Origin: Chitinophagaceae bacterium | GTDB taxonomy: Bacteria > Bacteroidota > Bacteroidia > Chitinophagales > REEL01 | Direction: 5' to 3' | Assembly (NCBI GenBank): GCA_007695095.1 | Contig: REEL01000098.1 | Location: forward strand, 1-39,228 | DNA length: 39,228 bases | Part shown: piece after piece, positions 10,609-21,584 of the stretch | Layout of the letters: every line of letters begins with the position of its first letter | How positions within the stretch are numbered: position 1 is the first letter of the stretch | The notes under the pieces: generated by a model | Seen by the model: only the letters and a program-made list of their open reading frames with translations | The model's database searches: none | Told to the model about the DNA's origin: nothing | Translations under genes and position numbers: made by a program

Positions 10609-12531
10609 ATGAAAAAGATAGCATCTTTAGTATTAACACTATTTACAGTTTTTCAAATCAATGGTCAGTCAAACTTTTGTGCAACTGATTATTCAGATGA
10701 AATGTACGATTGGTTGAGGGAGTTTGTTCAAAATCCTGCGAATTTGCAGTTTAAAAGAAGCAGTGAACCAATTATGCTCCCTTTGCAAATACACATAGTT
10801 GGGAATGATATCGGAGACGGTTATTATTCTTCAAGAACATTATTAACGGTATTGTGTGAATTAAACGATTATTTTGATGATACAGGTTTTCGTTTCTATT
10901 TGCATGATGATGTAAATTATATTAATAGTACTTCATTATTTGTACATAGTTCTTCATTTGCTATTGCACCTTTGATTAATGCAACCAGAGCAGCAAATGC
11001 CATTAATATGTATTTTGTGCAGGATCCAAGTGGGGCATGCGGATATTATTCAGGAGGAGCTACTTCTCAGGGAGCTCTTGAGGAAGGGGGACTGGATTTT
11101 ATGATGATAAACAGATCAAACAATTGTGCCGGACCTGGGAATATAACGATTGCTCATGAAATTGGGCACTACTTCTCTTTGCCCCATCCTTTCTTCAGAT
11201 GGGAAGGTGGTAACGTTCCGGATAATCCTGAATACGTAACCAGAGACCCTGCTACCAGAAATTGTCATGAAACAGCTGATTTATTTTGTGATACAGATGC
11301 CGATTATTTTTATGAAAGATGGAGTGCTCCTTATAATTTTGCAGCTAATCCATTTGGTTTTGAATTAATAGATCCTTTGGGAGAGCCTATCGATCCGGAT
11401 CCGACATTGATTATGGGATATGCTAATGAATCAGGAAATCCGTCTCCAAATCGCTTTTCAAATGAGCAAATGGCAGCAATGAATGGATTTTTAATGGCCA
11501 GAAGAACGAATTTGTTGCAACATCCGGAACCGGTTACTCAGGAGATTACTCAAACTGCAACTTTAGTTTCTCCTTCACAGGGAAGTACGGTTACAGCAAA
11601 CTATGTAAATCTAAAATGGAACCATGTACCTAATGCAACACATTACAGTGTTCAGGTTGCTACAAATGTTGGTTTCACAAATTTACCGGTTGATACAATA
11701 GTATCTGACACTTCTTTGGTTGTTACAAATTTGGCACCGAATAATTCCAATTATCGCTTTAGAGTGACTCCATTTAATCAAACTTCTTTTTGTACAGAAG
11801 CTTCATCCATAACCACTTTTGCTACGGGAGGAGCTTCTCCAATATCTCCAAATTTAGTAACGAGATTTTGTGCTGATGAAACTTTAGGTTCAATTACTTT
11901 AAATCCTACAGGTGGAACGCCACCTTATCAATATGTATGGGCAGGAGGGTTTAGCGGAAATCAGGTTAGTAATCTTTTTCCGGGCAACTATAATGTAACC
12001 ATACAGGATGCGGATGGTAACTCTTTACCATTAAGCATCGATTTATTCCCTTATGAACCATTAGAGTTAGAAGTATTGGTTGGTCCGGGTTTATTAGCTG
12101 CTGAAGTGAGTGGAGGCAAAGAGCCTTACTCTTATGAATGGTCAAATGGTTTTGTAGATAGAAAAATATTTGAATTGGATCAGGGTAGCTATACTGTTGA
12201 AGTTACTGATGCTACCGGTTGCACTATTTCCGGGCAAGCATCAATTACCGGAATACAGGAGCCGGGCGAAGAGTTTTCTAATGTACGTGTATATCCTAAT
12301 CCTACCCAATCAACCGGAGTAGTATATGTAGTTTTTGAAACAATTTTAAATGTAGATGGTAAGCTTTCACTGTATAATAATCAGGGGCAGCAAATAATGG
12401 AACGAAATGTCTCAATAATAAGTGGTATGAACTCTGAGTCTATAACAATTGAAAATTTACCTCAGGGAGTATATATAATTAGGTTAGAAGCCGGGAACAG
12501 TATTATGAACAAACGATTAATTGTTTTGTAG
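10609..12531 (+). CDS. Secreted M43-like metalloprotease with SprB-like repeats and T9SS sorting domain
   Basis: 640 residues. Signal peptide about 1-19 (MKKIASLVLTLFTVFQINGQ). The zinc site HEIGHYFSLPH (183-193) gives the three histidines and catalytic Glu184 of a metzincin, and a Met-turn-like LIMGY has Met269. The overall pattern fits pappalysin-like M43 (cytophagalysin) peptidases, although the usual glycine of HExxHxxGxxH is Ser190. A fibronectin-III-like domain covers about 317-405. Two SprB-like beta modules follow: about 425-477, with GGTPPYQYVW, and about 485-545, with GGKEPYSYEW. A type A T9SS C-terminal domain is at about 558-640 (VYPNPT ... PQGVYIIRL ... KRLIVL). It is thus exported by Sec, then by T9SS to the cell surface or medium. 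It has its own promoter and sits 67 bases before the TonB-dependent receptor. Confidence 0.85.
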   Translation: MKKIASLVLTLFTVFQINGQSNFCATDYSDEMYDWLREFVQNPANLQFKRSSEPIMLPLQIHIVGNDIGDGYYSSRTLLTVLCELNDYFDDTGFRFYLHDDVNYINSTSLFVHSSSFAIAPLINATRAANAINMYFVQDPSGACGYYSGGATSQGALEEGGLDFMMINRSNNCAGPGNITIAHEIGHYFSLPHPFFRWEGGNVPDNPEYVTRDPATRNCHETADLFCDTDADYFYERWSAPYNFAANPFGFELIDPLGEPIDPDPTLIMGYANESGNPSPNRFSNEQMAAMNGFLMARRTNLLQHPEPVTQEITQTATLVSPSQGSTVTANYVNLKWNHVPNATHYSVQVATNVGFTNLPVDTIVSDTSLVVTNLAPNNSNYRFRVTPFNQTSFCTEASSITTFATGGASPISPNLVTRFCADETLGSITLNPTGGTPPYQYVWAGGFSGNQVSNLFPGNYNVTIQDADGNSLPLSIDLFPYEPLELEVLVGPGLLAAEVSGGKEPYSYEWSNGFVDRKIFELDQGSYTVEVTDATGCTISGQASITGIQEPGEEFSNVRVYPNPTQSTGVVYVVFETILNVDGKLSLYNNQGQQIMERNVSIISGMNSESITIENLPQGVYIIRLEAGNSIMNKRLIVL

Positions 12532-12598: not shown

Positions 12599-15500
12599 AT
12601 GATTATGCAGCGTATTTTGATGTTATTTCTAAGTGTCATGCTTACACTTGCCGGATATGCTCAAACCGGTGAAGTATCAGGTCGGGTTGTTGATGAAAGA
12701 GGAGAAGGGGTTCCTTTTGCTTCTGTTGCTGTGGAACAGGATGGAAGTGTTATTCGTGGATCACAAAGTGATTTTGACGGTAATTTCTTAATTCGACCAA
12801 TTAATCCGGGCAGATACGACTTACGTGTATCTTTTGTAGGATACCAGACAGAGCTTGTTACAGGAATACAAATTAATCCGGACAGAATTACAACTGTTAA
12901 TGTTGAGATGCGCTCATCAGATCAGGAAATTGAAGAAGTTGTTGTAAGGGAGTTTAGAGTACCCCTTATTGACCATGAAGATGTGGCAACTAAAAACACA
13001 ATAACCAGTGAGGAAATTCGGGCTTTACCCACCAGAGATGTGCAATCTATTGCTTCTACAAGTGCCGGTATTTATCAGCAGGATGAAGGAGGAGAATTGA
13101 ATATACGTGGAGCTCGTTCAGATGGTACAGAGATATATATTGATGGTGTACGTGTAAGAGGTTCTTCAAATTTACCCGCACAATCTATAGAACAAATGAC
13201 AGTAATTACCGGAGGTGTTCCGGCTAAGTTTGGAGATGCTGTAGGTGGTTTTGTGAATATTACTACAAGAGGTGCTTCCAGACAACTAAGAGGAGGTTTA
13301 GAAGTTATAACATCAGAATTTTTAGATCCTTACGGATATAACTTAGTTAGTTTTAACTTGACCGGTCCAATTTTAAAAAGAGAAGATGAAAGTCCGATTC
13401 TTGGTTTTTTCTTAGCCGGAGAATATTTAGGGCAAAGAGATCCGAGACCTTCGGCTATTGGAGTATATCAGTTAAAAGATGATGTATTAGATAATTTAGA
13501 AAGGAATCCATTACTACTAAATCCGACAGGTGACGGTGTACGCTTAAGGGCTGAAACTATCACTTTAGATGATATGGAGATTGTAGATGTGAGACCTAAT
13601 GCCGAGGAGAATAATTACAGAATGACAGGTAGGTTGGACTTTAATTTGTCTCAAAATTTAAATTTAGCTTTTGGAGGTACATATGATTATACCAGAAGAA
13701 GAGACTATGTTGACAGGTATGCTTTATTTAATTCGGTAAATAATCCAATACAAGATAGAAACACTTGGAGAGTATTTGGACGATTTACTCAAACCTTTGC
13801 CGATGGTTCAAATCAGGAGGAAGAATCTACCGGAAGGGCAAGCGTACAAAATGCATTTTATTCAATACAAGCTGACTTTACTAAAGTATTGAATAAAACG
13901 GAAGGCCCGGGAATTGGATTTAATCCTTTTGATTATGGTTACTATGGAAAATTTGAGAGACATAGAGCACCCATATATGAATTTGGTACAGACTCATTAA
14001 CAGGACAAAGCGGGTTACTGTTAGCCGGTTTTAGAGATACGCTTGTGACTTTTACTCCGGGCGATGTTAACCCTACGGCCACTAATTATGCAGTGCAGTT
14101 TTTTGATTTAGCACCGGATAACCCTCAGGGATGGTATGAAAATCTTGATCAAATTCAACAAAGAAGAGGTTTAATTAATGGTGTAAGAGCTGAAATTCCG
14201 TATGGTATTTGGTATAATACAGGACGTGTTATAAATGGTTACGGATATAGTAATGATGATGAGCAGTACCGTTTAAGCTTTAATGCTGCATTTGATATTA
14301 TCAGACCGGGTGTTGTCAGAAACAGACATTCTATTGAGTTTGGATTTGAGTTTGAGCAGAGAGTTGATAGACAATACAGCATAAATCCATTAGAATTATG
14401 GACCTTAATGAGACAGTTGACAAACACACATATTTCACAGTTAGACTTTGATAATCCTGAAATTATTAATGTACCATTTGGACCGGATACCATTAATTAT
14501 CCTTTAAGGTACGATGAGTCTGAACAAACTCATTTTGACAGAAACTTAAGACAGGCTTTAGGCTTACCGGTTGATGGTACAGATTTTATTAATATTCATG
14601 CAATTGACCCTTCATCTTTTTCTTTAGATATGTTTAGCGCAGATGAATTATTACAAGATGGTAGAAATGCTTATGTTAGTTATTTTGGATATGATCATGT
14701 TGGAAATAAATTAAATTATCGTCCAACTTTTGAAGATTTTTTTACAAAAAGAACAGATGAGGGTGAATTTGAAAGGCCGGTAGATGCTTTCCGACCTATT
14801 TATAGTGCTTTTTACGTACAAGATAAATTTCAATTCAGGGATATATTATTTAATGTAGGTGTAAGAATTGACAGGTTTGATGCAAATCAAAAAGTCTTAA
14901 GAGATCCCTTTTCCCTTTATGCAATCAGAAGTGCATCAGAAGTTAGTGGAGAACTTAATCCATCAGGAGCACATCCTGTATCAATAGGTGGAGATTATGC
15001 AGTATATGTAGATGATTTTAATGCTGAAAACCCACAAATTTTAGGTTACAGAAGTGGAAATACCTGGTTTACTGCTGAAGGTTCAGAGACATCAGATGCA
15101 ACATCTATAGCGCGAGCGTCATCAACCGGTAGGATTACACCTTATTTGGTAAACCCTTCAGATAATATAAGAAGTGAGCAGTTTGACCCGAATACATCTT
15201 TTATGGATTATGAGCCACAGATAAGTGTTATGCCAAGAATTTCTTTCTCATTTAATATTACTGATGAAGCTTCTTTCTTTGCTCATTATGATATTTTAAC
15301 TCAAAGACCTCAAAGTTTTATTAGAACGAGTCCAACTACATGGTATTATTTTGAAAGCAGGACAGGTCAGATATTAAGCAATCCTAACTTAAGACCGGAA
15401 AAGACAATTGATTATACCTTAGGTTTCCGTCAGTTGGTAAGTCAAACATCTGCAGTTACTTTTTCTGCATTTTACAGAGAGTTGAGAGACATGGTGCAAA

Positions 15501-16312
15501 TTGTAAGAACTCCATTTGCTTATCCTAATGAGTATTTAACTTTCGGAAATATTGACTTTGGAACGGTTAAAGGACTTTCAGTGGCTTATGATTTGAGGAG
15601 AACAGGAAATGTATCTTTAAAAGCAAACTATACATTGCAATTTGCTGAAGGAACAGGATCTGACGCTACATCTCAGTTAAGTTTAGTAAATGCCGGACAA
15701 CCTAATTTAAGGACTATTGTGCCTTTGAATTATGATTCCAGACATATGTTTAACATAAACTTTGATTACCGCTATGGATCAGGCAGAAATTACAATGGTC
15801 CTAGAATAGGTGATAGAGATATACTGGAAAATTCAGGAATAAATATTATTGCCAGAGGTCGTTCCGGAGAACCTTATACTAGACAACAAAATGCTACACC
15901 TGAGGCTTTATTTACTGTGCCCACCAGACCAATACTTCAGGGAGGTATAAATAGTGCCAGATTGCCATGGAATTTCAGGTTAGATGCTCGTATTTACAAG
16001 AGCTTTGACTTAGGAACCGTTGGACAGGTTGTATCAGAAGACGGAACAATTGAGAAAAGAGGAAATAACCTAAATCTTGATGTGTACTTATTGGTTCAGA
16101 ATATTCTAAATACAGCGAATGTGATTAGAGTATATCCATATACCGGTAATCCGGATGATGATGGATATCTTACATCACCTGAAGGTAGAGAGTATATTGC
16201 CGGTAGAGCCAACCCTCAGTCATTTCAGGATTTATATCGAGTGTGGATAGACAACCCTCGGAATTACAGCTTGCCAAGATTAATTCGTCTTGGTGCAATT
16301 TTCTCATTTTAA
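12599..16312 (+). CDS. TonB-dependent receptor with carboxypeptidase-regulatory-like N-terminal domain
   Basis: 1237 residues, an outer-membrane gated barrel. Signal peptide about 1-21 (cleavage near GYA/QTG; a second ATG at 12605 is equally usable). A CarboxypepD_reg-like beta-sandwich follows at about 24-105 (GEVSGRVVDERGEGVPFASV), then a plug domain at about 125-225 with DVQSIASTSAGIYQ, LNIRGARSDG, YIDGVRV and GGFVNITTRG. The rest is a 22-strand-type barrel, including ASFFAHYDILTQRPQ and NLRPEKTIDYTLGFRQ, and it ends in a terminal Phe (LGAIFSF). It takes up a large or scarce substrate using TonB energy. It is not followed by a SusD-like lipoprotein, so this is not a typical glycan-uptake SusCD pair; the next gene encodes a giant exported protein 22 bases away. 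The substrate is unknown. Confidence 0.92.
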   Translation: MIMQRILMLFLSVMLTLAGYAQTGEVSGRVVDERGEGVPFASVAVEQDGSVIRGSQSDFDGNFLIRPINPGRYDLRVSFVGYQTELVTGIQINPDRITTVNVEMRSSDQEIEEVVVREFRVPLIDHEDVATKNTITSEEIRALPTRDVQSIASTSAGIYQQDEGGELNIRGARSDGTEIYIDGVRVRGSSNLPAQSIEQMTVITGGVPAKFGDAVGGFVNITTRGASRQLRGGLEVITSEFLDPYGYNLVSFNLTGPILKREDESPILGFFLAGEYLGQRDPRPSAIGVYQLKDDVLDNLERNPLLLNPTGDGVRLRAETITLDDMEIVDVRPNAEENNYRMTGRLDFNLSQNLNLAFGGTYDYTRRRDYVDRYALFNSVNNPIQDRNTWRVFGRFTQTFADGSNQEEESTGRASVQNAFYSIQADFTKVLNKTEGPGIGFNPFDYGYYGKFERHRAPIYEFGTDSLTGQSGLLLAGFRDTLVTFTPGDVNPTATNYAVQFFDLAPDNPQGWYENLDQIQQRRGLINGVRAEIPYGIWYNTGRVINGYGYSNDDEQYRLSFNAAFDIIRPGVVRNRHSIEFGFEFEQRVDRQYSINPLELWTLMRQLTNTHISQLDFDNPEIINVPFGPDTINYPLRYDESEQTHFDRNLRQALGLPVDGTDFINIHAIDPSSFSLDMFSADELLQDGRNAYVSYFGYDHVGNKLNYRPTFEDFFTKRTDEGEFERPVDAFRPIYSAFYVQDKFQFRDILFNVGVRIDRFDANQKVLRDPFSLYAIRSASEVSGELNPSGAHPVSIGGDYAVYVDDFNAENPQILGYRSGNTWFTAEGSETSDATSIARASSTGRITPYLVNPSDNIRSEQFDPNTSFMDYEPQISVMPRISFSFNITDEASFFAHYDILTQRPQSFIRTSPTTWYYFESRTGQILSNPNLRPEKTIDYTLGFRQLVSQTSAVTFSAFYRELRDMVQIVRTPFAYPNEYLTFGNIDFGTVKGLSVAYDLRRTGNVSLKANYTLQFAEGTGSDATSQLSLVNAGQPNLRTIVPLNYDSRHMFNINFDYRYGSGRNYNGPRIGDRDILENSGINIIARGRSGEPYTRQQNATPEALFTVPTRPILQGGINSARLPWNFRLDARIYKSFDLGTVGQVVSEDGTIEKRGNNLNLDVYLLVQNILNTANVIRVYPYTGNPDDDGYLTSPEGREYIAGRANPQSFQDLYRVWIDNPRNYSLPRLIRLGAIFSF

Positions 16313-16334
16313 TAAACAGCTTAAAGATTTAATT

Positions 16335-19300
16335 ATGAATTTATTTAAAATCGGCGTTCTAACCATCTTAACTGCGAGTATAACACTTTTAGGTTATGCA
16401 AGACCGCCGGAGGGTATGCCACCGGTTGAAGAATCTATAAATTTCAGAAAACTGGCATCAAATTGCGCGCCGGCCAGTTCACAAATTGATTTAGATGTAA
16501 ATAATGTTCGAACAACCTTATTGAATGGTGGTGACAAATGGTGGAATTTAAATGATGCTCGTTATGAGATTCCTAAGATTGATCCACCCGGTTCTGCTCC
16601 TTCCGTACATTCTTATTTTGCCGGCTCTATTTGGGTTGGTGGTTTTGATGCCGGTGGACAGCTAAAGATTGCTGCTCAAACTTATCGTCAGTCAGGAGAT
16701 GATTTTTGGCCGGGACCTTTGGATGATAATGCAAATGTTACACCTCAGGTTTGTCAGGATTATGACAGACACTGGAGAGTTCGGGCTGCTGATATTGACC
16801 AGGCAAGAGCTGCAGCAGCAGCTTATTTAGCTGAATTAGGTGATCCGGACGGTGAAGTTAATTTGGCCGTTTCTGATATACCACAAAGTTTATTAGACTG
16901 GCCCGGTGTAGGAAATCCTTATGCAAGAGGTGCACAAAATGTTCCGCTTACTATTGATAATGAATTAGCTCCTTTCTTTGATTATGACGGAGATGGAATC
17001 TATGACCCCACAAAGGGTGATTTTCCGGTCATTTCAACAGATTGTGAAGATGTATACGGAGACCAAATGGTATTTTGGGTGTATAATGACAAGGGAAATA
17101 TTCACACGGCAACTAACGGTGAAGCTATAGGCTTACAGATTAATGCTACGGCTTTTGCTTTTACGACCAGTGATGAGATTAATAATATGACTTTTTACCG
17201 TTACACTTTAATTAATAAGGCATCTTCTCCATTATTTGATGTATATATGGGTAATTGGGCAGATCCTGATTTGGGTTGTTTTAACACAGATTATGTAGGT
17301 TGTGATACGACCAGAAACTTAGGAATTATTTATAATGGTACAGCAACTGACCCGGATTGTGCAACCAGAGGTTATGGTGCGAATCCTCCCATTTCAGGGA
17401 TTACTTATTTTGAAGGACCTAAAGATACTGCAGGTGTAGAAATTGGAATGTCAGGATTTATCTATTATAATAATGACTTCAACCCGGTTAACGGGAATCC
17501 GGTGACAGCTATTCATCACTATAATTATTTAAGAGGTGTTTGGTTAGATGGCTCTCCAATTACTGAGGGTGGAGATGGAACTACCGGAACTGTTCCTACA
17601 AGTTATATGTTTCCGGGTGATCCTTCGGACCCTACTGGATGGTCAGAGTGTTCTGAAAATAATAATCCAAGTGACAGACGCTTTTTACAAAATAGTGGTC
17701 CTTTCGTTTTACAGCCGGGAGCTGTGAATAATATCATTACAGGTGTAGTATGGGTTCAAATACCGGGTGTTTACCCTTGTCCTTCTTTTGAAAACACTAT
17801 AGGACCTGCTTCTGATAAAGCACAAGCTTTATTTGATAACTGTTTCCGTTTAATTAGCGGACCGGATGCACCGGATTTAAAAATCAGAGAATTAGACAGA
17901 GAGATAATTATTTCTTTAGAGAATAGCCTTACTTCTAATAATGTGAATGAGGCTTATGAAGAAGTTGATCCGATTTTATCAGCAATCGGAGCAGAAGACA
18001 GTACATACAGATTCCAAGGATATAAATTATATCAGGTTCGTAACCCACAGATAGATGCAGGTGATTTATTTGATATTACAAGAGCAAGACTTATTGCACA
18101 GGTAGATGTTGAGGATGGAGTTGAAAGACTTATTAACTGGGAGTTTAATCCATCAATTAATGGTTTTGAGCCTCAGGTTATGGTTGAAGGTTCTGATGAA
18201 GGTATAAGGAGAACTTTCAGAGTAACAAACGACCAGTTTGCTACCGGTAATACCAGATTGGTAAATCACAAAAGGTATTATTTTGCTGTAGTTGCTTATG
18301 CTTATAACAATTATGAACAATTTGACCCTTTAAATCCGGGAGATGGAGGTCAAAACTTACCTTATTTACAAGGTAGAAGAAACTTTAGAATTTATTCAGC
18401 TATACCACATCAAACTGAACCTCACTTTGGTACTCAGTTAAATGCTGTTTACGGTCAGGGAATGCAGGTTGAAAGAATCGAAGGAACCGGTAATGGAGGA
18501 AACTTCCTTAATATTACCAGACAGATGGTTGATGATATACTTGCCAGCGAAGATCATAAAGTAGGTAGGTTAACTTATGAACCGAATCAGGGACCTATAG
18601 ATGTAAAAGTCTATGATCCGTTTTTAGTAAGAGCAGCTGATTTTACTTTAAGAATGATTGATACTGTTGGCGTTTCTGATACTCTTCGTTTGAGAGGACA
18701 AATTGGGGTAACATTGGATACTATTATCATTAACAGAGACCTGAGTCCTACAGCTTATTGGGAATTAGAGATAGTCGATAGTGATGGTCAAACAACTATA
18801 GTTGCTGACAATAATTTATCAAGATTGAATGAACAAACTTTAAGTGAATATGGAATATCTCTTACTATAGTTCAAAGATCCAGACCATGGTTTAACAGAG
18901 AAACCGGAAATGGGGTAATTGGTGCCTCATTGACCTTTGATAATCCTAATATACCATGGTTAAGAGGAGTTGAAAGCAGTGGTACATTTAGTGCAACAAA
19001 CTGGATTAGAAGTGGTATAAACAGAGCTGGTGCAGGTAGTGACTTTGCTGATTTTGAGGCCGTTTATAATTCACATTACGATTCTATTATCGGAGTTGGA
19101 GATATTATATTTAGAGATCCAAATGATGAATTTGAAGATTTAATTAATGGTACATGGGCACCTTATGCTTTAGCAGCTAACAGATTTTTTGTTGGAGCTA
19201 ATGATCAACCTTCGGCTTATTCTCATGGACCCGCATTCCCGTGGAGGTGGCGTGGAATTAACGCCTATGCAGATCAGGAATTCCCTACTAATAATATGCA

Positions 19301-20372
19301 TAGATTACCATCGATAGATGTTGTATTTACAGCAGATAAAAGTAAATGGACAAAAGCTGTTGTATTAGAAACAGGTGAATACAGAGATTTAAATGCAAAT
19401 AAAGCACTAAAAGGAGAAATACGATTAGCGCCTTCCAGAGATGTTAATGGAAATGTAATCCCGGCTGATACCGGACGTTCATACTTCCCGGGTTATGCTA
19501 TTAATGTTGAAACCGGTGAGAGGTTAAACATTATGTTTGGAGAAAACTCTTATTTAAAGAATAAGCGAAATGATGGAAGTGAGATGCTTTGGAAACCGAC
19601 GAGAGTTTCATTACCACCACTATATCCGGCAGAAGCTCCTGAGTTTGGCGGAGGGCATTATATATATGTAATGGAGACACCTTATGATGAAGGTGAAGCT
19701 GCGCAAAGGTTCCTTTTAGATAACTATAAGGTTCAGACAGCACCTTCTGCTAACCCCAATGCTATTCAGACAAGACCACATAACCAACTTTATAAGCAAA
19801 TTATGTGGACGAGTATGCCGGTTTTAAATCCTAATTTTTCATTCAGACCTTTACGTGAAGGACTTATACCAACAGATGCAACTGTAAGACTAAGAGTTGG
19901 AAGGCCTTATGCAGAATATGTTGTTGACAGTACTTATAATGGCATGCCGACATACTTCTTCAGTACAAATGGTTTGGAAAGAGACTTTAATGTTGAAGAA
20001 GTTTCTAAAAATGCATTAGATGAAATCAGAGTTGTTCCAAACCCTTATTATGCTTATTCAGCTTACGAAACAAGTCAGTTGGATAACAGAGTTAAAATAA
20101 CAAATCTACCGTCAAATGCTACTGTTTCTATTTATTCAATAGATGGTAAGCTAATAAGAAGATTCCAGAGAGCTATTGCAGAAAATGTTTCAGATGGCAC
20201 ACCTGTAGAAGTTGTTAACTTAGATAATTCATTAGATTGGGATTTAAGAAATCATCAGAATATTCAAATTTCAAGTGGAGTTTATATCATACATATCAAC
20301 GCTCCCGGTATAGGTGAAAGAAGTATTCGTTGGTTTGGAGTGCTTAGACCTATTGATTTGGATACATTCTAA
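16335..20372 (+). CDS. Giant exported protein of unknown function with T9SS-like C-terminus
   Basis: 1345 residues from the ATG at 16335. The frame is open further upstream, but an earlier ATG at 16290 lies inside the receptor gene and would hide the signal peptide MNLFKIGVLTILTASITLLGYA. The N-terminal region has WWNLNDARYEIPK, YFAGSIWVGGFDAGGQL and TYRQSGDDFWPGPL. DYDGDGIYDP (216-225) looks like a calcium-binding loop. The middle is beta-rich and has no enzyme motif I can recognise. The C-terminus has the sorting-domain elements VVPNPY, VSIYSIDGKLIRRF and SSGVYIIHI, but it continues to an unusual tail, RWFGVLRPIDLDTF. The 22-base gap suggests cotranscription with the TonB-dependent receptor. 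A perfect hairpin terminator follows. Surface location is inferred; the function is unknown. Confidence 0.8.
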   Translation: MNLFKIGVLTILTASITLLGYARPPEGMPPVEESINFRKLASNCAPASSQIDLDVNNVRTTLLNGGDKWWNLNDARYEIPKIDPPGSAPSVHSYFAGSIWVGGFDAGGQLKIAAQTYRQSGDDFWPGPLDDNANVTPQVCQDYDRHWRVRAADIDQARAAAAAYLAELGDPDGEVNLAVSDIPQSLLDWPGVGNPYARGAQNVPLTIDNELAPFFDYDGDGIYDPTKGDFPVISTDCEDVYGDQMVFWVYNDKGNIHTATNGEAIGLQINATAFAFTTSDEINNMTFYRYTLINKASSPLFDVYMGNWADPDLGCFNTDYVGCDTTRNLGIIYNGTATDPDCATRGYGANPPISGITYFEGPKDTAGVEIGMSGFIYYNNDFNPVNGNPVTAIHHYNYLRGVWLDGSPITEGGDGTTGTVPTSYMFPGDPSDPTGWSECSENNNPSDRRFLQNSGPFVLQPGAVNNIITGVVWVQIPGVYPCPSFENTIGPASDKAQALFDNCFRLISGPDAPDLKIRELDREIIISLENSLTSNNVNEAYEEVDPILSAIGAEDSTYRFQGYKLYQVRNPQIDAGDLFDITRARLIAQVDVEDGVERLINWEFNPSINGFEPQVMVEGSDEGIRRTFRVTNDQFATGNTRLVNHKRYYFAVVAYAYNNYEQFDPLNPGDGGQNLPYLQGRRNFRIYSAIPHQTEPHFGTQLNAVYGQGMQVERIEGTGNGGNFLNITRQMVDDILASEDHKVGRLTYEPNQGPIDVKVYDPFLVRAADFTLRMIDTVGVSDTLRLRGQIGVTLDTIIINRDLSPTAYWELEIVDSDGQTTIVADNNLSRLNEQTLSEYGISLTIVQRSRPWFNRETGNGVIGASLTFDNPNIPWLRGVESSGTFSATNWIRSGINRAGAGSDFADFEAVYNSHYDSIIGVGDIIFRDPNDEFEDLINGTWAPYALAANRFFVGANDQPSAYSHGPAFPWRWRGINAYADQEFPTNNMHRLPSIDVVFTADKSKWTKAVVLETGEYRDLNANKALKGEIRLAPSRDVNGNVIPADTGRSYFPGYAINVETGERLNIMFGENSYLKNKRNDGSEMLWKPTRVSLPPLYPAEAPEFGGGHYIYVMETPYDEGEAAQRFLLDNYKVQTAPSANPNAIQTRPHNQLYKQIMWTSMPVLNPNFSFRPLREGLIPTDATVRLRVGRPYAEYVVDSTYNGMPTYFFSTNGLERDFNVEEVSKNALDEIRVVPNPYYAYSAYETSQLDNRVKITNLPSNATVSIYSIDGKLIRRFQRAIAENVSDGTPVEVVNLDNSLDWDLRNHQNIQISSGVYIIHINAPGIGERSIRWFGVLRPIDLDTF

Positions 20373-20384
20373 ATATATTACAAT

Positions 20385-20416
20385 ATAGCCGGAGATTAAG
20401 TTCTCCGGCTATTTAT
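20385..20416 (+). terminator. Intrinsic terminator after the giant exported protein
   Basis: Perfect 11-bp stem ATAGCCGGAGA / TCTCCGGCTAT (20385-20395 and 20402-20412) with a 6-base loop, followed by a weak T-rich stretch. It is one of the most GC-rich hairpins in the window and lies 13 bases past the stop. It separates the giant-protein gene from the PorV-like gene in the same direction, so it may attenuate rather than stop transcription. Confidence 0.7.
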
Positions 20417-20463
20417 AAACTTTTTTAAAGAACAGACTGGAGCTCACATAAAAAAAACAGAAC

Positions 20464-21528
20464 ATGAATAATCTAATTAAATTACCAATAGTATTGGTTG
20501 TATTCATTGCTTTCGGAATTCAAAGTGGTTTTTCCGGAAACCCTGATAGGATTGGTGAAGCAGGAGCCTATGAATTACTTATTAATCCTTGGTCCAGGAG
20601 TACCGGAGTTAATGGTATTAATTCGGCAAATGTCAGCGGTATAGAAAGTGCAAATAATAATATTGCCGGTTTAGCTAAAGTTGACGGTACAGAAATTTTA
20701 TTTTCGCATACTATGTGGATGCGTGGTAGTGGAATTTCAATTAATGCAATGGGTTTGGCTCAACCGGTAGGTGAATCCGGAGTAATGGGACTTTCTTTAA
20801 TGTCACTAGGATTCGGTGATATTGAAAGAACAACTACTTCATCTCCTGAAGGAGGTTTGGGGGCATTTAACCCTCAATTTTTTAATATTTCACTGGCATA
20901 TTCAAGAAATTTCAGTAACAGTATTTCAGCAGGATTATTAGTGCGTGTAATTTCTCAAAGAATTGATGATATCACTGCTTCCGGAGCTGCTATCGATGGT
21001 GGTATTCAGTATCAAACAGGTCCCAGAGATAATGTTAAATTCGGAATAGCATTGAGAAATGTTGGAACACCGATGAGATTTGGTGGTGACGGACTAAGTT
21101 TTAGAGGACCTGCTTTAGAAGGAGACTTTGAAATGACACAAGCTATGAGAGCTGAAAAATTTGAGTTACCTTCATTACTTACTTTAGGAGGTTCTTATGA
21201 TTTCTATCTTGATGATGCGGCTGAAATACCTCAACACAGACTTACAGTTATGGTTAATTTTAATGCTCATTCATTTGGATATGATCAATTTGGAGGAGCT
21301 ATTGAATATGCATTTAATGAAATGTTTATGATTAGAGGTGGATATTTATATGAAGAAGACTTAACCGATAATTTATTGAAAAGAACAGCATTTAATGGTT
21401 TTTCTGCCGGCGCAACATTAGATGTTCCTTTAAGAGAAGACGGTGCTAGAATTGGTGTAGATTATTCATTCAGACCTACAAATCCATTTGATGGTACACA
21501 TGCTCTTGGAGTACGTATCGGACTATAA
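20464..21528 (+). CDS. PorV/PorQ-family outer-membrane barrel protein
   Basis: 354 residues with a signal peptide of about 25 residues (ending near QSGFSG). The mature protein resembles the PorV/PorQ branch of the FadL-like barrels: an N-terminal NNIAGLAKVDGTEILFSH block, alternating amphipathic strands such as FFNISLAYSRNFSNSISAGLLVRVI, and a C-terminal LGVRIGL strand. PorV (LptO) is the T9SS component that receives cargo at the outer membrane, and PorQ is a related component; this copy is likelier to be a dedicated paralogue than the core gene, because no core T9SS gene is near. It lies 91 bases after the giant exoprotein gene, beyond a terminator, and is followed by a second terminator. 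Its role as a surface anchor or transfer partner for the upstream protein is inferred. Confidence 0.82.
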   Translation: MNNLIKLPIVLVVFIAFGIQSGFSGNPDRIGEAGAYELLINPWSRSTGVNGINSANVSGIESANNNIAGLAKVDGTEILFSHTMWMRGSGISINAMGLAQPVGESGVMGLSLMSLGFGDIERTTTSSPEGGLGAFNPQFFNISLAYSRNFSNSISAGLLVRVISQRIDDITASGAAIDGGIQYQTGPRDNVKFGIALRNVGTPMRFGGDGLSFRGPALEGDFEMTQAMRAEKFELPSLLTLGGSYDFYLDDAAEIPQHRLTVMVNFNAHSFGYDQFGGAIEYAFNEMFMIRGGYLYEEDLTDNLLKRTAFNGFSAGATLDVPLREDGARIGVDYSFRPTNPFDGTHALGVRIGL

Positions 21529-21550: not shown

Positions 21551-21584
21551 AAAGAAACGTTTCAATGGAAACGTTTCTTTTTCA
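21551..21584 (+). terminator. Strong intrinsic terminator after the PorV-like gene
   Basis: Perfect 13-bp stem (21551-21563 and 21568-21580) with a 4-base loop AATG, running into TTTTTC. It lies 22 bases past the stop and 28 before greA. It closes the surface-protein cluster and insulates greA. Confidence 0.8.

Follow-up and report, generated by a model that had tools for sequence, protein, structure and literature searches.

PorZ and PorU are type IX secretion proteins whose C-terminal domain (CTD) is not removed and which are anchored via PorQ and PorV, respectively (PMC5562754, PMC10202324, PMC11285876). A review of 2023 proposed that cognate PorV-like barrels may shield some CTDs from cleavage (PMC10202324). 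Cognate pairing has been demonstrated between type B CTDs and PorP/SprF barrels, and in Flavobacterium johnsoniae it is the identity of the PorP/SprF shuttle that sets the final location of the cargo (PMC12618676). In SusCD and RagAB, and in BtuB-BtuG, a TonB-dependent receptor (TBDR) with an N-terminal CarboxypepD_reg domain is followed by the gene of a surface lipoprotein that serves it as lid or cap (PMC7782687, PMC10404256). In the BAM complex of Bacteroidota, BamG, a FadL-family barrel, holds the large surface protein BamH by extracellular loops (PMC12578637, PMC12611786).

Here we analysed a locus of three genes in a stretch of 39,228 nucleotides (the window) of one contig, which belongs to a 3.49 Mb draft genome of a Chitinophagaceae bacterium. 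Neolewinella is among the relatives of this host at order level, which places it in the Saprospiria/Chitinophagales part of Bacteroidia, within a separate family. The three genes, hereafter the trio, encode a TBDR, a large exported protein that we call the giant, and a barrel of the PorV/PorQ family. The trio is similar to SusCD/RagAB and BtuB-BtuG in its CarboxypepD_reg TBDR followed by a surface-protein gene and in the many divergent copies per genome found in some lineages. However, its partner protein has neither a SusD fold nor a lipoprotein signal, and resembles a type IX cargo with a barrel of its own. With PorZ-PorQ and PorU-PorV the trio shares a surface protein with a PorZ/PorU-type CTD and a PorV/PorQ-family barrel, and the porU and porV genes of the window's genome are adjacent, in the same cargo-then-barrel order. 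Yet the trio has a separate paralogue as its barrel and includes a TBDR, and the giant has a supersandwich, not the beta-propellers known from PorZ (PMC5562754) or a protease. As for type B cargo and PorP/SprF in F. johnsoniae (PMC12618676), a dedicated barrel is encoded directly downstream of a giant cargo, but the CTD is not of type B, the barrel belongs to the PorV/PorQ family and a TBDR stands upstream. Last, BamH, a lipoprotein, belongs to a complex with BamA, and BamG-BamH comes without a TBDR and without a type IX domain; the BAM accessory subunits BamG, BamH and BamP, considered as a possible identity of the trio products, are different proteins (PMC12578637, PMC12611786). A literature search on PorV paralogues, on PorV-like barrels with TBDRs and on type IX secretion outside Bacteroidota, which covered few subscription papers and preprints, did not find the triplet. 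It thus seems that the trio is a surface machine not described so far, one that probably captures nutrients.

Organization of the locus

The three genes are consecutive open reading frames on the + strand (Table 1), separated by 22 bp (TBDR/giant) and 91 bp (giant/PorV-like). The first-pass annotation had read them as a TBDR, a 1345-residue exported protein and a PorV/PorQ-family barrel, and this reading was borne out by the open reading frames, Pfam and NCBIfam. For the giant, the ATG at 16335 was taken as the start, the mechanical open reading frame beginning at a TTG at 16290.

Table 1. Position and basis of the features of the trio in the window
Feature	Coordinates	Strand	Basis or remark
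TonB-dependent receptor (TBDR), 1237 aa	12599..16312	+	Pfam, NCBIfam; stands upstream of the giant as a conserved partner in 48/57 and 44/51 loci
TBDR layout: signal peptide; CarboxypepD_reg, residues 26-104; plug, residues 131-217; predicted C-terminal barrel			
Giant exoprotein, 1345 aa, predicted type IX cargo	16335..20372	+	matches in 142/296 genomes of the phylum
Supersandwich domain of the giant (approximate)	16455..17880	+	mapped via alignment from the AF2 model of a shorter orthologue, L128
C-terminal domain of the giant, PorZ/PorU type	19998..20369	+	AF2 model of residues 676-1345; NCBIfam PorZ model
PorV/PorQ-family outer-membrane barrel, 354 aa	20464..21528	+	NF033709 above cut-off; tree clade
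Terminator-like hairpin	21551..21580	+	T tail; directly 3' of the PorV-like gene

The plug domain of the window TBDR scored 48.2 bits on the Pfam model (cut-off 23.9), which places the protein among the TonB-dependent receptors, and its CarboxypepD_reg domain was matched by Pfam as well. The SusC subfamily model TIGR04056 gave 63.9 bits for a cut-off of 368, on the N-terminal part only. A loose TonB-box motif fitted 21 of 46 receptors, weak evidence in that it sometimes matched another region of the protein. Read from the sequence, the giant begins with a hydrophobic signal ending in GYA-R, and no lipobox was found in this signal peptide.

Downstream of the trio come the hairpin with a T tail and then greA and a HIT gene. 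Terminator-like sites in the region numbered 7 for 6.7 expected, so only the position of this hairpin is telling. Between giant and PorV-like gene there is another, GC-rich hairpin, GCCGGAGATTAAGTTCTCCGGC (20389-20410, +), devoid of a long T tail; it might adjust the dose of the barrel relative to the giant. Upstream lies a serA-like gene, and between it and the trio stands a 640-aa type IX cargo (10609-12531, +), in which the signature of a reprolysin-like zinc protease is combined with two SprB repeats and, at the C-terminus, a type A domain. This cargo is outside the conserved unit.

Conservation of the trio and its co-occurrence with the type IX translocon

In the sampled genomes of the phylum, the DNA around giants was taken at 60 loci, and 57 giants had enough flank for their neighbours to be read. 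The order TBDR, giant, PorV-like barrel, in one orientation, was found for 48 of the 57, and the reversed order for none of them. When an alignment of the core domain was run against some 85,000 species genomes, it yielded 80 named loci, 51 with room for the neighbours, and the whole trio was present in 44 of these 51. Hence the three families are not found mainly away from one another; had they been, this would have spoken against the single surface module suggested by the first-pass annotation. That annotation had also pointed to similar triplets in other Bacteroidota and relatives, and these were indeed found in several phyla: Bacteroidota, Rhodothermota, Ignavibacteriota, Fidelibacterota, Calditrichota, Zixibacteria and Eisenbacteria. 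The lineages concerned are Rhodothermales, Saprospiraceae/Lewinella, Vicingaceae and other Flavobacteriales, Ignavibacteria, Kryptonia, Neomarinimicrobiota (Fidelibacterota), Calditrichota, Zixibacteria and Eisenbacteria. The family was absent from most of the Bacteroidia families sampled.

Loci that depart from the trio order hold solitary or tandem giants. Giant relatives without TBDR or PorV neighbours were seen in the window's genome (L013, L014 and L015, two of them cut by contig ends) and outside it (L078, L085 and L140), with up to four in tandem. In variant clusters (L223 and L236), TBDR and PorV come after a short giant-like gene and two further genes, and the giant does not stand between them. 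Flanks vary between classes, but several lineages share serA on the upstream side, and Bacteroidia, the window among them, share greA-HIT on the downstream side; because of this recurrence the window trio seems to be the old, vertically inherited locus. In one lineage (L086, L095, L098, L108 and loci like them), reading of the sequences shows three genes after the trio, whose products have a GWxTD-like motif or resemble a lipid A acyltransferase and a heptosyltransferase, hinting at a larger envelope cluster. In Rhodothermia-like loci (L061, L063, L065, L069 and L075), again by reading, a protein of ~700 aa with several CxxCH haem motifs and TPR-like repeats follows.

One genome, G014, carries 24 PorV-family matches, 11 of which are barrels in TBDR-giant-PorV trios with very divergent giants. 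For ten of these trios, pairwise distances were strongly correlated, with r = 0.89 for TBDR-giant, 0.89 for TBDR-PorV and 0.87 for giant-PorV (Mantel; permutation p about 1e-4 for each). At the level of sequence, this shows that the parts of the G014 trios were duplicated and retained as sets. Co-duplication alone can yield co-diverging neighbours, and contact between the products is not thereby proven. That the genes are chance neighbours is ruled out by the conserved order and the co-divergence. On these comparisons of sequences, the notion that the three genes form a real unit is well supported.

A search with the giant gave matches in 142 of 296 genomes. All 142 encode the type IX translocon SprA, and no match was found in the 67 SprA-less genomes among the 296 (Fisher p 1e-23, from counts that ignore genome relatedness). 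As many as 55 of the 142 matches were weak (E above 1e-15), some perhaps covering the CTD only; the strong matches (E up to 1e-15) came from 87 genomes, and SprA was present in 87/87. Another 16 genomes that carry triplets or giants, many of them outside the phylum (Neomarinimicrobiota, Calditrichota, Zixibacteria and Eisenbacteria among them), encode it in 16/16 cases. Gene presence across genomes thus gives good support to the view that the giant goes with the type IX machine, and export of the giant by this machine is likely. Together with the order conserved across phyla and the co-duplication and co-divergence within one genome, this co-occurrence with SprA supports the idea of one surface module.

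C-terminal domain of the giant and its barrel

The window giant had been credited with a T9SS-like end, and this was verified with a qualification. On the type A model TIGR04183 it scored 19.7 bits, below the cut-off of 23, and it did better on the PorZ model NF052228 (24.2 bits, E 1e-5), by the C-terminal part only and short of the whole-protein cut-off of 260. A true PorZ, with 614 bits on NF052228, is encoded elsewhere in the window's genome. The window giant was not matched by the type B model (CHU_C/TIGR04131), with E values of up to 1 allowed. Of 38 triplet giants compared at E 0.01, 35 were matched by the PorZ model, 28 by that of type A and 10 by that of PorU, and in relatives outside triplets a type A domain was over cut-off in 9/9 and the PorZ model matched in 0/9. 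In an AF2 model of residues 676-1345 of the window giant (pLDDT 78), the best structural match of the CTD was the CTD of PorZ (Z 10.2, 2.5 A over 90 residues, 24% identity), followed by that of PorU (Z 8.8); cleaved CTDs scored lower, namely mirolase (Z 7.1) and NucA (Z 6.4). By the sequence of its CTD and by a fold nearest PorZ and PorU, the window giant is of the PorZ/PorU type. The terminal residue of the giant was F, Y, L, I or M in 53/53 trios. The possibility that the giant is an ordinary type A cargo served by the common PorV is weakened by the model counts and by the structural matches.

The window barrel was over the cut-off of the family model NF033709 (PorV/PorQ family; 140.2 bits for 90) and far below those of the equivalogs NF033710 (57.8/250), NF033711 (59.5/220) and NF052325 (35.5/325). 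The PorV, PorQ and PorV2 equivalogs are all encoded elsewhere in the same genome. In a tree of 77 PorV-family proteins, the window barrel fell in a clade with 100/100 support that comprises 33 rows, 31 of them labelled as triplet barrels. This clade spans all the trio phyla and is set apart from the PorV, PorQ and PorV2 of the same genome, the barrels of the more divergent extra trios lying outside it. The first-pass annotation had suggested that the PorV paralogue handles the cargo encoded beside it, and the PorZ/PorU-type CTD, as judged by sequence and model, strongly supports this suggestion. The giant is likely to keep its CTD uncleaved and to be retained by it on the cognate barrel.

Other CTD proteins of the window's genome also adjoin PorV-family barrels. 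A 1280-aa CTD protein, PorU by place and size, is encoded directly before PorV. PorV2 (395-aa frame) is encoded directly before a 1713-aa protein with a trio-like CTD (L243:6224-12596, G000 contig 59), possibly a further cargo-barrel pair. At L245:6413-10163 (G000 contig 111), a PorV-family barrel, which scores closest to the general family model, is immediately preceded by an exported protein of 878 aa whose end is type A-like. Since PorV, PorV2 and the L245 barrel each adjoin a CTD protein, one barrel per CTD protein looks like a common rule in this genome.

Fold of the giant and possible working of the trio

The complete shorter orthologue L128 (1097 aa) was modelled with AF2 from 49 sequences (pLDDT 80). 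Its residues about 52-473 adopt the supersandwich fold found in the N-domains of GH15, GH65, GH94 and GH116 and in cyclic glucan synthase, with a Z of up to 19.6 for the best structural match (3.2 A over 258 residues, 10% identity) and a Foldseek probability of 1.0. The model is nearly all beta and the mostly helical catalytic barrel of the GH15/65/94/116 enzymes is absent from it; for this reason the giant is probably not an enzyme of this kind. To judge from the model, the giant could bind carbohydrate. A shared fold alone is no proof of function, and supersandwich domains are purely structural in places. About residues 690-1220 of the window giant gave no clear fold match of their own, in a stretch barely tested by the aligner. 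A profile of the whole alignment run against PDB sequences retrieved the PorZ end only (E 0.007), besides unconvincing matches. A search of plasmids returned one match to the C-terminal domain, in Rhodothermus marinus.

The absence of SusD from the locus, already remarked on in the first-pass annotation, extends to the genome: there is no SusD gene beside the window TBDR, and SusD_RagB (PF07980) had no match in the whole genome of the window, despite 24 plug-domain matches. On the strength of these zero matches, the reading that a SusD was missed is rejected. SusD_RagB had no match in G014 either, with its 11 trios. The list of folds matched by the giant contains supersandwich domains and no SusD, an absence that excludes nothing. 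Among SprA-bearing genomes, SusD was lacking in 51/87 of those with a strong giant and in 23/142 of those without, as counted irrespective of relatedness, and several genomes have both SusD and triplets. The fold of carbohydrate-active enzymes and the SusD-poor distribution lead us to lean towards uptake. From the receptor in every trio, the divergent copies and the SusD pattern, we infer a receptor system in preference to a housekeeping one.

We propose that the trio is a type IX-delivered, barrel-anchored surface receptor that serves the TBDR, with a SusCD-like working and a different build, a proposal to which we give about an even chance. The three products would form one outer-membrane surface complex. 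The giant would be exported by Sec and then, by way of its CTD, through the type IX translocon SprA. The adjacent PorV-like barrel would act as a private shuttle and anchor, receiving the giant from SprA and keeping hold of its uncleaved CTD, as PorQ does with PorZ and PorV with PorU. The large non-catalytic supersandwich region would stand over the neighbouring TBDR and pass a bound ligand, probably a glycan or glycan-like, to this receptor, which would import it with TonB energy. The giant would do the job of the SusD lid, with type IX delivery and anchoring in place of a lipid tail. In this scheme, docking of the giant on the TBDR, the ligand and TonB-driven uptake are the steps that we infer.

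Another possibility is that the trio builds surface: the giant would be a structural or adhesive coat protein on its own barrel, and the TBDR a scaffold, sensor or stabiliser. The existence of solitary and tandem giants without a TBDR indicates that the family can serve without a receptor, and the large, multi-domain giant with its FN3-like matches would suit such a coat. However, the solitary giants tested bear a different CTD, triplet giants keep their upstream TBDR, and the divergent triplets, of which a genome can have as many as 11, look like a receptor set for many ligands; we consider this explanation unlikely. Still more doubtful is a second attachment complex, a variant of PorU/PorV/PorQ/PorZ in which the giant would be a PorZ-like carrier, for instance of a glycolipid, for the processing of other cargo, and the TBDR would supply energy or a docking site. 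The PorZ/PorU-type CTD combined with a PorV/PorQ-family barrel is what such a complex would have, and PorZ, likewise on the surface, delivers A-LPS (PMC8545088). But PorV, PorQ, PorZ and SprA are already encoded in the window's genome, eleven divergent copies in one genome misfit a housekeeping step, and PorZ has beta-propellers where the giant has a supersandwich. That separate proteins merely share an operon, the barrel being a channel of the FadL type that serves hydrophobic compounds, with the giant freely secreted via the common PorV, is very improbable: PorV-family proteins are FadL-like barrels and operon membership is no proof of contact, but the strict order across phyla, the co-divergence in one genome, the restriction of the PorZ-type CTD to triplet giants and the separate clade of the triplet barrels all go against it.

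Extended to the whole family, the proposed type IX-delivered receptor would define an ancient class of outer-membrane uptake systems, in which type IX secretion brings a ligand-binding partner of the TBDR to the surface and a dedicated PorV-like barrel keeps it there. This class would be the counterpart of SusCD in SusD-poor lineages, with about a dozen copies in some genomes, and PorV-family barrels would in general be private shuttles that protect CTDs from cleavage. We advance this extension tentatively, as somewhat likelier to fail than to hold. The absence of the protein family from most sampled Bacteroidia families may explain why the trio was not described earlier. Cultured Neolewinella strains, N. 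aquimaris DSM 105137 and N. litorea, carry the trio (L169, L176), which makes the predictions testable. If true, the proposal would link TonB-dependent uptake and type IX secretion, so far studied apart, and would offer a large natural family in which to test the proposed protection of CTDs from cleavage by barrels (PMC10202324). It would also give a reason for the several PorV-family paralogues per genome, up to about two dozen matches, and would propose how SusD-less lineages may feed many of their receptors.
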